5,209 bases of DNA. Source: a bacterium. Its GTDB lineage: Bacteria; BMS3Abin14. Location of the stretch: positions 1 through 5,209 of the forward strand of contig JARGFV010000150.1 in NCBI GenBank assembly GCA_029210545.1, written 5' to 3'. The translations under genes and the position numbers were made by a program. Positions 245-5,209 of the stretch are shown here, one piece after another. The stretch's first letter is position 1. Every line of letters starts with the position of its first letter. Below the pieces are notes generated by a model that saw nothing but the letters and a program-made list of their open reading frames with translations, had not been told where the DNA came from and did no database searches.

Positions 245-853
245 TCAACAGCAGCAGGATGGCATGTTTTTAACCTGTTTTCTGTTATCGAAATACCGCT
301 TCAGGTTTTCCGGAAGCTCCTCCAGGGGCCCCGAAGTGAAAAACGGCAGGTCATCTATTTTCAACATGGCTTCCATGATGGCTTCGATCAGAAGCGGGAG
401 GGGTACCGAAGGATAAACCTCGCCCCGGTAATGCCAATCACGACACTCAATTATGGCGTTTTTTTCCGTCAGATCTCCGCAGGAGGCGCACTCCGACTCG
501 CGGATGTCCTGGGCGATGTCCCGGCCGTTTACCCGTATCGTCGGCGAGCTGAGCAGGGCCCTGGCCTGCGCCTCTTCCGGAGTCCGCACAACGGTCTCCC
601 GGTACATCAACACCACGCCCAGAGCCTCAGCCACCGGTCTGAGAAGCCGCACCGCGGTCCTGAGCTGTTCTCCGGTGGGGACGCAGCGCTCGCAGGTTTC
701 CAGGTCTATCGCCAGCAGCTCCACATCCAGGATATTCCTACCTGCCCGGGTCCCCTGAACGTTCTCCGGGGATGTCTGTAGCCTGTCTGGCCCACATCCG
801 CAGCCGCAACCCGGATCGGTATCAACCAACCATCCCGTTTCCTTTTCTTTCAT
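245..853 (-). CDS. DUF2703 family cysteine-rich protein of the arsenic-resistance cluster
   Basis: This 202-residue protein starts at the ATG at 853, preceded by GGGAG at 862-866 with an 8-base gap. An open frame continues upstream to 1060, but it only translates the inserted repeat element, so that longer start is rejected. An in-frame ATG at 868 lacks a ribosome binding site. The core (about residues 41-165) matches the DUF2703 pattern: LDVELLAIDLETCERC with Cys54/Cys57 in a CxxC, then SPTIRVNG (Pro104, like the cis-proline loop of thioredoxin folds), SECASCG (Cys122, Cys125), Cys137 in CRDW, and a C-terminal helix. Extra cysteine clusters lie at the N-terminus (Cys16, 18, 20 in GCGCGCG) and at the extreme C-terminus (Cys200-202). 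The biochemical role of DUF2703 is not established. Its usual place beside arsR and arsP genes and its many thiols suggest metalloid binding or redox handling, which is inference. No signal peptide is seen, so it is probably cytoplasmic. Confidence 0.85.
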   Translation of the reverse strand: MKEKETGWLVDTDPGCGCGCGPDRLQTSPENVQGTRAGRNILDVELLAIDLETCERCVPTGEQLRTAVRLLRPVAEALGVVLMYRETVVRTPEEAQARALLSSPTIRVNGRDIAQDIRESECASCGDLTEKNAIIECRDWHYRGEVYPSVPLPLLIEAIMEAMLKIDDLPFFTSGPLEELPENLKRYFDNRKQVKNMPSCCC

Positions 854-861
854 CTTATCTT

Positions 862-866
862 CTCCC
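862..866 (-). promoter_or_regulatory. Ribosome binding site deciding the DUF2703 start
   Basis: On the minus strand GGGAG lies 8 bases before the ATG at 853. The alternative ATGs at 868 and 1060 have no comparable motif. The site lies outside the inserted element, whose edge is at 878. Confidence 0.65.
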
Positions 867-877
867 ATGTCGAATGT

Positions 878-1034
878 TGATAGAGTCGCAAAAAGTCCAT
901 CAACGCACCCCGCGTGGGGTGCCCAAATCAATGACCCGCACCGTAAGTCATTGATTTGTGAGGAAAGGGAAAACGACGCTTTTCCCTTTCCGTGGAGCGA
1001 AAAGTCCCGGATTGGACTTTTTGCGACCCTATCA
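878..1034. repeat. 157-bp multi-hairpin element with terminal inverted repeats (MITE- or REP-like), copy 1
   Basis: The two ends are inverted copies over 22 bases with one mismatch (TGATAGAGTCGC... at 878-899; its complement ends at 1034, with G for A at one site). Flanking ATGT occurs directly at both junctions (874-877 and 1035-1038), within a 7-base direct match AATGTTG (873-879, 1034-1040), consistent with a target duplication. The interior is almost all stem-loop: GCACCCC/GGGGTGC (905-911/916-922); an 11-bp stem AAATCAATGAC/GTCATTGATTT (925-935/947-957); a 12-bp stem GGAAAGGGAAAA/TTTTCCCTTTCC (962-973/980-991); and AAAAGTCC/GGACTTTT (1000-1007/1014-1021). It has no credible coding sequence. 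A second copy at 5136-5209 confirms that it is a repeat family. It separates arsR from the DUF2703 gene within one apparent operon. Confidence 0.88.
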
Positions 1035-1241
1035 ATGTTGCGTTGATCCATGCTGGACACCCCGTTCCCGTCCCGATTCCTCTATCCCTCCTGTCATGGA
1101 AGCTGGACCTCGGATCCGCCCGCGGGCGGCGGAGCACCAAACCTCAAGCTTCAAACGACGTTAAACCCCTATTTATTCCGGCAAGGATTCTTTAAATAAC
1201 GGATAAAACAGTAAAAAACCGATTACTCGCTGAACGTTTCT
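1035..1241. other. Intergenic remainder between arsR and the inserted repeat
   Basis: No gene is supported here. It contains a 14-base perfect GC palindrome (CCGCCCGCGGGCGG, 1116-1129) that is not followed by a T-run on either strand. An AT-rich stretch at about 1160-1225 lies just downstream of arsR. I see no convincing terminator, so readthrough from arsR toward the DUF2703 gene is possible. TGCGTTGAT at 1039-1047 is complementary to ATCAACGCA at 899-907 inside the repeat, so the element might extend slightly past its terminal repeats. Confidence 0.4.
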
Positions 1242-1678: not shown

Positions 1679-1777
1679 GTATAACCCCGGTAACCCCGGT
1701 GTCTAACCCCGGTGTCAGAGCAAGTAACCCCTGTGTCAGTAACCCCTGTGTCAGAGTAACCCCTGTGTCAGAGCAAG
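1679..1777 (+). repeat. Tandem array of TAACCCC / GTGTCAG units upstream of the RAYT gene
   Basis: Six TAACCCC cores occur at 1682, 1691, 1704, 1725, 1740 and 1757, joined by GGTGTC or TGTGTCAG linkers. The longer GTGTCAGAGCAAG occurs twice, at 1712-1724 and 1765-1777. The first three units carry CCCCGG and the last three CCCCTG, suggesting stepwise duplication with divergence. CCCGGTGTCAGAGCA (1708-1722) reappears exactly, inverted, at 2732-2746 downstream of the transposase. A small hairpin GGGGT/ACCCC lies at the left edge (1674-1688). This fits the cis-acting repeat DNA that typically brackets RAYT genes. Confidence 0.8.
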
Positions 1778-1837
1778 AACAAACATATTTTTCCGGAAGG
1801 TATGGAGTTTTGGCAGCATCCTTGCAGCGTCTCCTGC

Positions 1838-2491
1838 ATGGGACGTCCACTGCGGGTCATACAGAACATCTACCCCTACCACTTAACGTGCCGGACCAAC
1901 AACCGGACCTTCCGCTTCAATCAGCGGCAGGTCACCCGCATCTTCTTCCAGGCACTGAAGGAAACCCATGAAAAATATAGCTTTCTCATCCACCACGTGG
2001 TCCTCATGTCCGACCATTATCACATCATCGCCACCACCACCGAAGAGAACCTTCACCGCGCCATGCAATACCTCAACTCCAGGATCGCCGTCCGGTACAA
2101 CAAAATGGTCGGACGCTCCGGACACCTGTGGGGGGGCAGGTACGGGTCGTGTATCATCGATACGGACGAATACTACATGGCCTGTGTAAGGTACATCTAC
2201 CGCAACCCCAAAAGAGCCGGCATGGTTGACGATCTGGAGGAGTTTTCATACTCTTCCTTCCAGTTCTGGGCTTTTGGCAACAAGCTGGACGTGTTGCTCG
2301 TCGACGATCACCTGGCCATGCGCTGGGGCAAGGGAAAGAGAAGGTCCAGGGAGTTTTTCAAGATCCTGGTCCTGGACGAGGGCTTCGGGTTCACGGATGA
2401 CAATGTGAAGAAGGGCCTGAGACGCATGTTCTTCGGTTCGGCCGACTTTAAGCAACAGATGTACGATACCTACTGCTGTCCCGCCTCCTGA
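1838..2491 (+). CDS. REP-associated tyrosine transposase (RAYT, Y1/HUH transposase, IS200/IS605-related)
   Basis: The chosen product has 217 residues. It begins MGRPLRV..YHLTCRTNNR, the N-terminus typical of this family. The HUH metal motif is His60-Tyr61-His62 in VLMSDHYHIIA. The following conserved blocks are YLNSRIAVRYNKMVGRSGHLWGGRY (residues 78-102) and EYYMACVRYIYRNPKRAGMV (111-130), in which Tyr119 is the likely catalytic nucleophile, then YSSFQFWAFG (138-147). RAYTs nick and join single-stranded DNA at REP-type hairpins. They are usually single-copy, domesticated-looking genes, unlike true IS200 transposases. The C-terminal part (about 150-217) is longer than in minimal members. An earlier in-frame ATG at 1802 would add 12 residues; its GGAAGG is only 1 base away, so it is less likely, though neither start has a good ribosome binding site. 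A run of seven G (2130-2136) encodes part of the LWGGR block. The frame is intact, so activity is plausible. Confidence 0.9.
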   Translation: MGRPLRVIQNIYPYHLTCRTNNRTFRFNQRQVTRIFFQALKETHEKYSFLIHHVVLMSDHYHIIATTTEENLHRAMQYLNSRIAVRYNKMVGRSGHLWGGRYGSCIIDTDEYYMACVRYIYRNPKRAGMVDDLEEFSYSSFQFWAFGNKLDVLLVDDHLAMRWGKGKRRSREFFKILVLDEGFGFTDDNVKKGLRRMFFGSADFKQQMYDTYCCPAS

Positions 2492-2519
2492 AAATATCCT
2501 TTATTCGGTACCTTGCTTT

Positions 2520-2540
2520 CCTTGAAACCAGGTTTCCAGG
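2520..2540. other. 21-base imperfect dyad after the RAYT gene
   Basis: GAAACC/GGTTTC (2524-2529/2531-2536) is a perfect 6-bp dyad around one central base. It extends to 2520-2540 with a single mismatched pair. No function is assigned. Confidence 0.35.
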
Positions 2541-2562
2541 AACGGGTACGCTCAAAACCCAT

Positions 2563-2588
2563 GGGGCCGGTCTTTTCTGACCGGCCTT
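2563..2588 (+). terminator. Strong GC hairpin after RAYT, possible terminator
   Basis: GGCCGGTC (2565-2572) and GACCGGCC (2579-2586) form a perfect 8-bp stem with a TTTTCT loop, extendable by two G-U pairs to 2563-2588. It lies 71 bases after the RAYT stop codon. The T-rich stretch (CTCTTTT) comes only after TGGCC, so it is not a textbook intrinsic terminator. It could instead be a REP-type hairpin belonging to the RAYT element. Confidence 0.45.
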
Positions 2589-2712
2589 GGCCCTCTTTTC
2601 GATCCCGAACCTCCAAACCAAACACCCTTGATCTTCCCGAGCCGGTAAATCCTTCAATTTTTATCCAGGATTGTCCTTTATTTGTCCGAACCGGACCGTA
2701 TCCCTCCCTCTG

Positions 2713-2760
2713 GCTCTGACACCGGGCGGGATGCTCTGACACCGGGCGGGATGCTCTGGC
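2713..2760. repeat. 20-bp tandem direct repeat carrying the inverted RAYT-flank core
   Basis: A 20-base unit beginning GCTCTGACACCGGG occurs exactly twice (2713-2732, 2733-2752), and a third degenerate copy starts at 2753. The inverted core TGCTCTGACACCGGG (2732-2746) is the exact reverse complement of 1708-1722. The RAYT gene is therefore bracketed by inverted copies about 1 kb apart, marking the probable outer limits of the RAYT module. Confidence 0.8.
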
Positions 2761-2885: not shown

Positions 2886-3055
2886 TCACGCCGGTGGCGT
2901 GACTGAAAAGAGGCGTGTGAGGTGTTCCGGAGCCTGGCTGCCGCGGGCAGGGGGGAACTCTGCCAGAAATCCGGCGATGGGACATCCCCGGTCGGATTCC
3001 CGGAGCGGGTGGGCGGCATCGGGTCGCTGGTTGAACCTCCCGGTGGCCGCCGACG
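2886..3055. other. Structured non-coding stretch between the transposase remnant and the direct repeat
   Basis: No gene is supported. A 7-bp hairpin TCACGCC/GGCGTGA with a 3-base loop (2886-2902) directly follows the remnant's stop and may be the old insertion sequence end or its terminator. Several short GC dyads follow (for example CTGCC/GGCAG around 2939-2949 and GATG/CATC around 2975-2985). Open frames on both strands show no family features and look like repeat DNA. Confidence 0.4.
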
Positions 3056-3115
3056 GTAAAAACGGCTCCGCAAACGCCCCGACCGGAGGCCGATCAAAAC
3101 CAATCTGATTTCGGG
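3056..3115 (+). repeat. Degenerate ~60-bp direct repeat, copy A (downstream of the phosphoethanolamine transferase gene)
   Basis: This segment aligns with 5065-5125 in the same orientation with small indels. Shared blocks are AAAAACGGC, CTCCG, the exact 14-mer GCCCCGACCGGAGG (3076-3089), CAAAA-CAATC, and GATTTCGGG. In both copies CTCCG and CGGAG can pair around the GCCCCGAC segment (3066-3070 with 3084-3088 here). Confidence 0.65.
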
Positions 3116-3132
3116 CCAGCCGTAGCTCTTGA

Positions 3133-3182: not shown

Positions 3183-4850
3183 TTAGTTCCGGCTTTTTCC
3201 ATAGGGCTTCCCGGCGATGGATCTGGGAGCAGGGGTGAAATCCGGCGACAGGATGTCGGCCGCGGGGTCATAATACTCGCCGGAGATCCCCATGAGGCCC
3301 AGCAGGGTATGGTCAAGACGATCTGTCTGGTAAGGCCTTTGAGCCAACTGTTCAGGTTCCACCCGGAACTCCGGATAAGAAGGGGAACGCCATAAGATCA
3401 TGGGGATTTCATACATGGCCGGGACCCTGTGGTTGTGCCCTATGAAATTTGTATAGTGGCCGACATCTTCCCCGTGGTCGGGGATATACAGCCAGGCCAC
3501 CGATTGACCACTTTCCCCGCACAGGTCGATGGTCTTTTTCAAAACGTGGTCTGAGTAAAGCATGGCGTTGTCGTAGAAACCCCGCCACTTGATCACACCG
3601 AAATTCCGGCCGGCCTTTTTCATCTCCCTTGTCACTTCGTCTTCGACACCGTTGAACACGGCAAACGGTTCAGGGTAGCGGAAATAAAAGACCGGGTGGG
3701 CGCCGAGGAGATGAAGGACGATAAACTTCCTGTGAGCGGGATCCTCCAGGGCCGTTTTCAAGGCAGGCAGCACCACCTCATCATATGAGCTTTCCGTCCT
3801 CGACCCCCCCCGGTTCGTGCTCACGATCTCATCCGCGTGCTTGGCGATGATCGCGATGGAACCGGTCAGGTCTGTCGTGTGATTGGTGATCCAGAACGTT
3901 TTGTATCCAACCTTGCGGGCCATGGACAGAAGGTCCGGCGTCTTTTCGAACCGCCCGGGATCCTCGCGGGTCGCCGGCCCCATGATCAACTGGATGTCCC
4001 CCACCGTTGACGCAGCGGTCGTGATGACATCCCTGAAACTCAACAGTTCCTTACCCATGGCCTCGAGTTGTGGTGTCGTTTTCCTGGGATACCCGTACAT
4101 GGACCAGTTGAGCCTGGTTGTGCTCTCACCGATCACGAAAACCACCGTCCGATCCTCGTCGCCGGTGTAGTCCAATCCTTTGAAGGCCTCATCCATGTCC
4201 ATGGCGGCATCGATCCTGTCCCGGACCTGTTCGACCCGCTTCAGATCCTTCTGCCACTTGGCATGCCGGATGGGGAAATAAAGGAGCGGGTTTTCCTTGC
4301 GGGTGGTGGGGTTGAGATGAACGAGAAGCAGCAGGACGGTCAGAACCAGGGGGAGAACATTTTTCTGCCTGGAGACCGGCGCTCCATCTTTACCGGGAAC
4401 CCCGGATGTGTCGGCCTTGAGAGATTCCCGGGTCCTGCTCCTTCGCGGCTTCCAGCCAAGGAGGAACCAATACACGCCTGCAACGACAAGTATCACAACC
4501 AGGTGCTTGCCGATGTAGGAAATGTTCTGGAGCACAAACTCCGAAGCTTCACTGGCGTCCGTGTTGAACAGGGCCGCTATCACGATAATGTCATCGTGGG
4601 CGACACCGAAGATATCCCTTACAAACCCCTGGAATGAGATGATCCCCGCAAAAAGCAGGAAGGTGATGAAAGTCGCCGCCCTGCCGGGTCGGCTCTCCTG
4701 CCCCTTTTTCGTTGTCCACGAGGTTACGGTGAGGATTGACAAGGCTCCCAGGAAACCGACCTTGCCAGCCTGGATGAAGTTCAGCCAGCCCATGACCCCG
4801 TAAAAGGTCACGGCGGCTATGTATCCTCCAACCCTGATCAAATACAGCAT
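3183..4850 (-). CDS. Inner-membrane phosphoethanolamine transferase, EptA/CptA-like (sulfatase superfamily)
   Basis: This 555-residue protein has a normal length for the family. The N-terminal part has five predicted membrane segments (about residues 7-23, 31-46, 59-76, 116-132, 164-178), and a periplasmic alkaline-phosphatase-fold domain follows from about 230. Catalytic features are visible: VFVIGESTTRLNWSMYGYPR with metal ligand Glu242, the nucleophile region TTAASTVGD with Thr282 (40 residues later, the spacing known in Neisseria EptA), HLLGAHPVFYFRYP with His385, IPDHGED with Asp458/His459, and GHNHRVP with His472. Such enzymes move phosphoethanolamine from phosphatidylethanolamine to lipid A or LPS core sugars, lowering negative charge and often polymyxin sensitivity. 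The exact acceptor cannot be read from sequence. The start at 4850 has GAGGG at 4857-4861, 6 bases upstream. It is a monocistronic-looking gene with its own promoter. A run of eight G on the sense strand (3804-3811, Gly348-Gly349) is a possible slippage site. Confidence 0.9.
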   Translation of the reverse strand: MLYLIRVGGYIAAVTFYGVMGWLNFIQAGKVGFLGALSILTVTSWTTKKGQESRPGRAATFITFLLFAGIISFQGFVRDIFGVAHDDIIVIAALFNTDASEASEFVLQNISYIGKHLVVILVVAGVYWFLLGWKPRRSRTRESLKADTSGVPGKDGAPVSRQKNVLPLVLTVLLLLVHLNPTTRKENPLLYFPIRHAKWQKDLKRVEQVRDRIDAAMDMDEAFKGLDYTGDEDRTVVFVIGESTTRLNWSMYGYPRKTTPQLEAMGKELLSFRDVITTAASTVGDIQLIMGPATREDPGRFEKTPDLLSMARKVGYKTFWITNHTTDLTGSIAIIAKHADEIVSTNRGGSRTESSYDEVVLPALKTALEDPAHRKFIVLHLLGAHPVFYFRYPEPFAVFNGVEDEVTREMKKAGRNFGVIKWRGFYDNAMLYSDHVLKKTIDLCGESGQSVAWLYIPDHGEDVGHYTNFIGHNHRVPAMYEIPMILWRSPSYPEFRVEPEQLAQRPYQTDRLDHTLLGLMGISGEYYDPAADILSPDFTPAPRSIAGKPYGKSRN

Positions 4851-5010: not shown

Positions 5011-5061
5011 GGCGTCACTCAACAGTTCCTGACGCCGCCCGGACCCGTTCTTCGGACCGGG
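5011..5061. other. Two adjacent hairpins upstream of the phosphoethanolamine transferase promoter
   Basis: GGCGTCA (5011-5017) and TGACGCC (5030-5036) form a perfect 7-bp stem with a 12-base loop. CCCGG (5038-5042) and CCGGG (5057-5061) form the base of a second, imperfect stem. They sit next to repeat copy B and may belong to the same repeat unit. No gene is seen in 4959-5135. Confidence 0.4.
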
Positions 5062-5064
5062 ACC

Positions 5065-5125
5065 GAAAAAACGGCCTCTCCGATGCCCCGACCGGAGGTT
5101 GGCAAAAACAATCGCGGATTTCGGG
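5065..5125 (+). repeat. Degenerate ~60-bp direct repeat, copy B (upstream of the phosphoethanolamine transferase gene)
   Basis: This is the partner of 3056-3115: it has the identical 14-mer GCCCCGACCGGAGG (5085-5098), a CTCCG/CGGAG pairing, CAAAAACAATC, and GGATTTCGGG, in the same orientation. It ends 10 bases before the second copy of the 157-bp element. Confidence 0.65.
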
Positions 5126-5135
5126 TGTCCCTGCT

Positions 5136-5209
5136 TGATAGAGTCGCAAAAAGTCCAATCCGGGACTTTTCGCTCCACGGCAAGGGAAAAGCGTCGTTTT
5201 CCCTTTCCT
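5136..5209. repeat. 157-bp multi-hairpin element, copy 2, inverted and cut by the window edge
   Basis: These 74 bases match the reverse complement of 961-1034 with 2 differences (A for G in the terminal repeat, C for A in the 12-bp stem). The terminal TGATAGAGTCGC is intact, and the AAGGGAAAA/TTTTCCCTT hairpin is present. The C-for-A change breaks one pair of that 12-bp stem. The remaining half lies beyond the window. Confidence 0.88.

Follow-up and report, generated by a model that had tools for sequence, protein, structure and literature searches.

A probable TIRtron with ends multiplied into small tandem arrays

The 5209-bp window analysed here, one entire contig (G000:C150) of a 2.72-Mb, 241-contig assembly, contains an element that is very probably a TIRtron, with an IS200/IS605-related Y1 transposase gene placed between inverted cognate ends, (CC)GGTGTCAGAGC. 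From sequence comparison, these ends appear to represent the GGGGWSAS ends of TIRYTs in a local form. The observations behind this assignment are the family and catalytic residues of the enzyme, the inverted flanks of its homologues elsewhere, the spread of the core through the family, one deletion derivative that the ends delimit and the tandem clustering of the ends. TIRYTs and TIRtrons were named by Di Nocera et al. in 2013 for RAYT-like genes located between inverted non-REP repeats, which occur singly, as dimers and in groups; the GGGGWSAS motif is found in the majority, not in all, of the TIRtrons described (PMC3733652). Since this layout has already been reported as TIRtron/TIRYT (PMC3733652, PMC6006769), the element is not a new kind of system, but a TIRtron that differs by one core base and has no C-terminal extension on its transposase. 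Less ordinary than the layout itself is the multiplication of the ends into patterned small tandem arrays. The first-pass annotation had described a RAYT gene bracketed by inverted copies of a core within such arrays; its account of enzyme, core and layout holds and the orphan copies it proposed to look for exist, while the published precedent, with its GGGGWSAS motif, had been overlooked.

The enzyme would most likely bind the core on single-stranded DNA, where Tyr131 would cut near the core before the strands are rejoined; the end sequence could be copied or moved to new sites, as could, occasionally, the gene or derivatives of it with deletions, and repeated action would leave clusters of ends. 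Core recognition, cleavage and mobility are inferred; action of the protein on the core is supported by the fact that core and transposase co-vary. In the TIRYT literature (PMC3733652, PMC6006769), no demonstration was found of a protein cutting or moving its own TIRs. The element bears on how RAYT-related enzymes spread repeats and on the targets of those members that have no GTAG hairpins; this lineage offers a short end sequence that changes with the transposase, orphan copies, deletion derivatives and an array boundary that might predict the nick.

The transposase and related enzymes

The product of the window ORF (Table 1) matches PF01797 (Y1_Tnp) with an E value of 1e-11 and reaches 83.8 bits for NCBIfam NF047646 (REP-associated tyrosine transposase), above the cut-off of 80, in agreement with its initial recognition as a RAYT-like Y1 transposase; no second Pfam domain was found in the protein. 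In the alignment with homologues, H72, H74 and Y131 are invariant. The true start is probably Met13, at base 1838, where distant homologues begin, giving a protein of 217 aa. The E. coli TnpAREP structure 4ER8 is a weak sequence match (E 0.008). Most aligned relatives at about 30% identity are 287-317 aa long (about 320) and carry a C-terminal extension, which the window protein lacks; in one of these long relatives a sub-threshold match to a DnaA-type helix-turn-helix is present. A plasmid search with the window protein gave only relatives below 60% identity. In place of the WG[DG]RY[RK]S of near homologues the protein has WGGRYGS, and this variant may mark it as a slightly degenerate copy.

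Among the known systems, the described TIRtrons are the closest. The window likewise has a Y1 transposase of RAYT type (HUH plus Y...NP), located, as are many homologues, between inverted repeats unrelated to GTAG REPs; these repeats are dispersed, and their GG(T)GTCAG is close to GGGGWSAS. Conversely, a T replaces the third G in the window core, so that GGTGTCAG fits the motif with one mismatch, whereas the GGGGTCAG of the G001 and G010 orthologues fits it exactly; furthermore, both window ends consist of tandem arrays whose leaders are specific to the locus, a feature for which no description was found in the text of PMC3733652. Among the papers listed for a literature query with the core itself, none concerned transposases.

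Most TIRYTs belong to TnpAY1 subclass 2.1, whose distribution includes deltaproteobacteria and whose members have a median length of 238 aa and a C-terminal HTH-type extension (Quentin et al. 2018, PMC6006769). The window protein shares with this subclass the NHYH-type HUH motif (DHYH in the window), the Y...NP motif and the lack of REPs, and its 229 aa bring it near the median by length alone; differently from the subclass, it has no C-terminal helix-turn-helix-type extension and shows WG in place of W[EQ]/FQ. Because this extension is missing, the protein is not filed here as a firm member. The REPtron/TnpAREP of E. coli (4ER8; PMC8266576) belongs to the same enzyme family and is also bracketed by inverted cognate repeats, whereas the window ends have neither the GT[AG]G foot nor a hairpin. 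The Y1/HUH domain PF01797 is shared with IS200/IS605 as well; however, the window element has no subterminal hairpins, no tnpB and a low copy number, and its Y motif ends in NP and is not of the Q type.

Organization of the ends

The transposase ORF lies between inverted CCCGGTGTCAGAGC copies, each within its own tandem array. The inverted-repeat search of the window recovered CCCGGTGTCAGAGCA at 1708-1722 and its exact complement at 2732-2746 (pair I9, 15/15), at the positions given by the first-pass annotation, together with the additional inverted pairs I5 and I7. GTCAGAGC occurs four times in the window (1714+, 1767+, 2713-, 2733-) against 0.11 expected, and at least four copies were reached in 0 of 200 shuffles. 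Six TAACCCC starts precede the ORF, at 1682, 1691, 1704, 1725, 1740 and 1757. Both arrays that had been proposed are real, and the 20-bp unit on the right, GCTCTGACACCGGGCGGGAT, is repeated 2.3 times with 100% identity; the full core, however, is present in only two of the six TAACCCC units, the others ending sooner and at differing points.

Table 1. Main features of the element in the window
Feature	Position	Strand	Description
Y1/HUH transposase gene (TIRYT/RAYT-like)	1802..2491	+	229 aa; PF01797, NF047646, catalytic residues
Left (5') end array	1682..1777	+	six TAACCCC units; full GTGTCAGAGC in units 3 and 6
Left-array units in order			TAACCCCGG / TAACCCCGGTGTC / TAACCCCGGTGTCAGAGCAAG / TAACCCCTGTGTCAG / TAACCCCTGTGTCAGAG / TAACCCCTGTGTCAGAGCAAG
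Right (3') end array, inverted	2713..2758	-	two identical core-bearing 20-bp units and a degenerate third

The ends could derive from the GTAG hairpins of a classic REP-type RAYT by decay of the repeats. A minority variant of the core, GGTGTCAGAGAC (GAGA class of the family's orphan cores, e.g. L012 3880-3950), is indeed palindromic in part, and its folding is weak: of 24 such cores, 9 reach -4 kcal/mol or lower, against 15% of shuffles. On the other hand, the window flanks contain no GTAG or GTGG foot, the GAGC-type cores of the window fold no better than shuffles, and linear GGGGTCAG ends are common to distant relatives. The REP-hairpin reading was rejected on the shuffle-level folding of the window cores, and decay from REPs is considered highly improbable; the contrast with the GTAG-plus-hairpin layout drawn at first sight is correct. 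The GAGA-class GGTGTCAGAGAC cores may connect linear TIRs with REP hairpins.

A role in autoregulation of the transposase gene, or in pairing of the transcript ends, would need no DNA processing: the repeated sites just 5' of the gene could serve a repressor as binding sites, and a long transcript could allow pairing between its inverted ends. This is an improbable explanation, since orphan copies of the same core and arrays are also found where no transposase gene is near, and the right array lies 222 bp past the stop codon. The suggestion that the arrays pair the transcript ends found no specific support; folding of the left array as a single strand does not surpass that of shuffles.

The neighbouring genes in the window (245-1060, 1242-1565, 3183-4850) code for a DUF2703 protein, an ArsR-type regulator and a CptA-like phosphoethanolamine transferase.

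Flanks of homologous genes

Comparison of the flanks of near and distant homologues indicates that the end sequence follows the lineage of the transposase. Homologues at 75-77% protein identity keep the same core as inverted flanks, and those at 60-61% have GGGGTCAGAG; thus, the core behaves as a flanking element of the transposase, as had been assumed, and orthologues with unrelated flanks, which would have spoken against this assumption, were not the outcome. The G008 homologue (75%), which has different neighbour genes, carries TCAGAGCACTTT adjoining masked bases on its upstream side and, downstream, CCCGGTGTCAGAGAC twice in inverted orientation. In G001 and G010 (60-61%), likewise in another genomic context, the GGGGTCAGAG ends are inverted, and one side in G010 is a 30-bp tandem triplet. 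Some homologue flanks are N-masked, and the counts for distant loci cover readable flanks only: among 17 such loci at about 30% identity, GGGG-type inverted ends are found in 12, with GGGGTCA or GGTGTCA in eight of these, other inverted ends in three and none in two. In the genome of the window, CCCCCGGTGTCAGAGC immediately precedes a second RAYT start, which is situated at a contig end.

Dispersed cores and remnants

The core is a dispersed repeat of this bacterial family. GTGTCAGAGC has nine copies in its own genome, four of them in the window, against one for the reversed control, and 4-26 copies per genome in seven relatives against 0-3; across 12 family genomes CCGGTGTCAGAG gives 75 matches against 10 for the control, part of those within genes presumably being due to chance. 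The copies of the core that the first reading had expected in this and related genomes are therefore present, orphans included. Many orphan cores carry the extended left-end sequence GGTGTCAGAGCACTTTGGCA; stop-free stretches gave no useful split of orphan cores into coding and non-coding in this GC-rich DNA. In a scan for generality, GGGGTCAG pairs number 10 against one control in the class of G051, while in the phylum of G058 they show no excess over the control.

An internal-deletion derivative with both ends is present in G003 (L055). Several 5' remnants in G009 have identical stop codons and differing flanks; this looks like spread after decay, though another copying route is possible. In G002 and G011 many cores are present but no close transposase was detected, so that core and enzyme do not always occur together. 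The search for empty sites or recent jumps met only variable intergenic regions and no empty site.

Boundaries of the array units

In the window and in loci of G002, G003, G008 and G010, a leader of about 7-11 nt, specific to each locus, is common to successive units on the core's outer side, while the points at which they stop on the inner side vary. The same design was observed at L279, L285 and L287, in a genome related only at the level of the same domain. The boundaries were evaluated on 40 close same-strand core pairs taken without selection; 18 of these are strict tandem duplications, with periods of 12-34 nt. In these 18 the outer-side match clusters at 6-12 nt (sd 2.98 against 5.35 for random phase, fraction 0.009), and the period correlates with the tail (rho 0.64, p 0.004) and not with the leader (rho 0.08); the numbers are small, pairs within an array are not independent, and the tail is by construction at least as long as the search core.

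The arrays beside a genuine TIRYT are more probably than not ordinary duplications by replication slippage or microhomology, unlinked to the enzyme. Short tandem duplications arise everywhere, the periods are short, and microhomology of 2-3 nt occurs at some unit junctions (e.g. CAG/GAG at G002:966246); nevertheless, slippage does not readily account for the clustering of the outer-side match, for a period that tracks only the tail or for the recurrence of the design in unrelated genomes.

The arrays could instead be an enzymatic footprint. The transposase would nick at a fixed distance of about 7-11 nt outside the core, the freed 3'-OH would be extended over a variable length, and the new end would be joined to the 5'-phosphotyrosine; each event would add a unit of leader and core, truncated on its inner side, beside the old one, in a sort of abortive rolling-circle-like amplification. 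TnpAREP enzymes cut and transfer strands near their own repeats (PMC8266576). This proposal is tentative and rather unlikely, because of the non-independent pairs, the small numbers, the floor on the tail and the junction microhomology. If it were true, the position of the nick could be read from the arrays in the genome, and these would also offer the ends a means of multiplication.

Other repeats in the window and related genomes

A different repeat, whose inverted arms are 23 bp long (TTGATAGAGTCGCAAAAAGTCCA) and which contains the palindrome GGAAAGGGAAAA...TTTTCCCTTTCC, is found at 877-1035 and 5135-5209 of the window; the contig end falls inside the second copy. A dispersed repeat containing GACCGGAGG occurs at 3040-3116 and 5061-5109, and has many copies also in G003. 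A further dispersed repeat of about 250 bp, which looks like a miniature transposable element, is present at L231:588-837 (G003:C4) and in about 40 places in G000, with 92-100% identity across two genera; many G000 contigs start or stop within it. Finally, the reverse strand of L051 (G009:C32) has, near 110-330, a decayed RAYT copy whose interruption lies beside about five tandem GTGGACAGTTTG units, reminiscent of IS21-type multiple end repeats.
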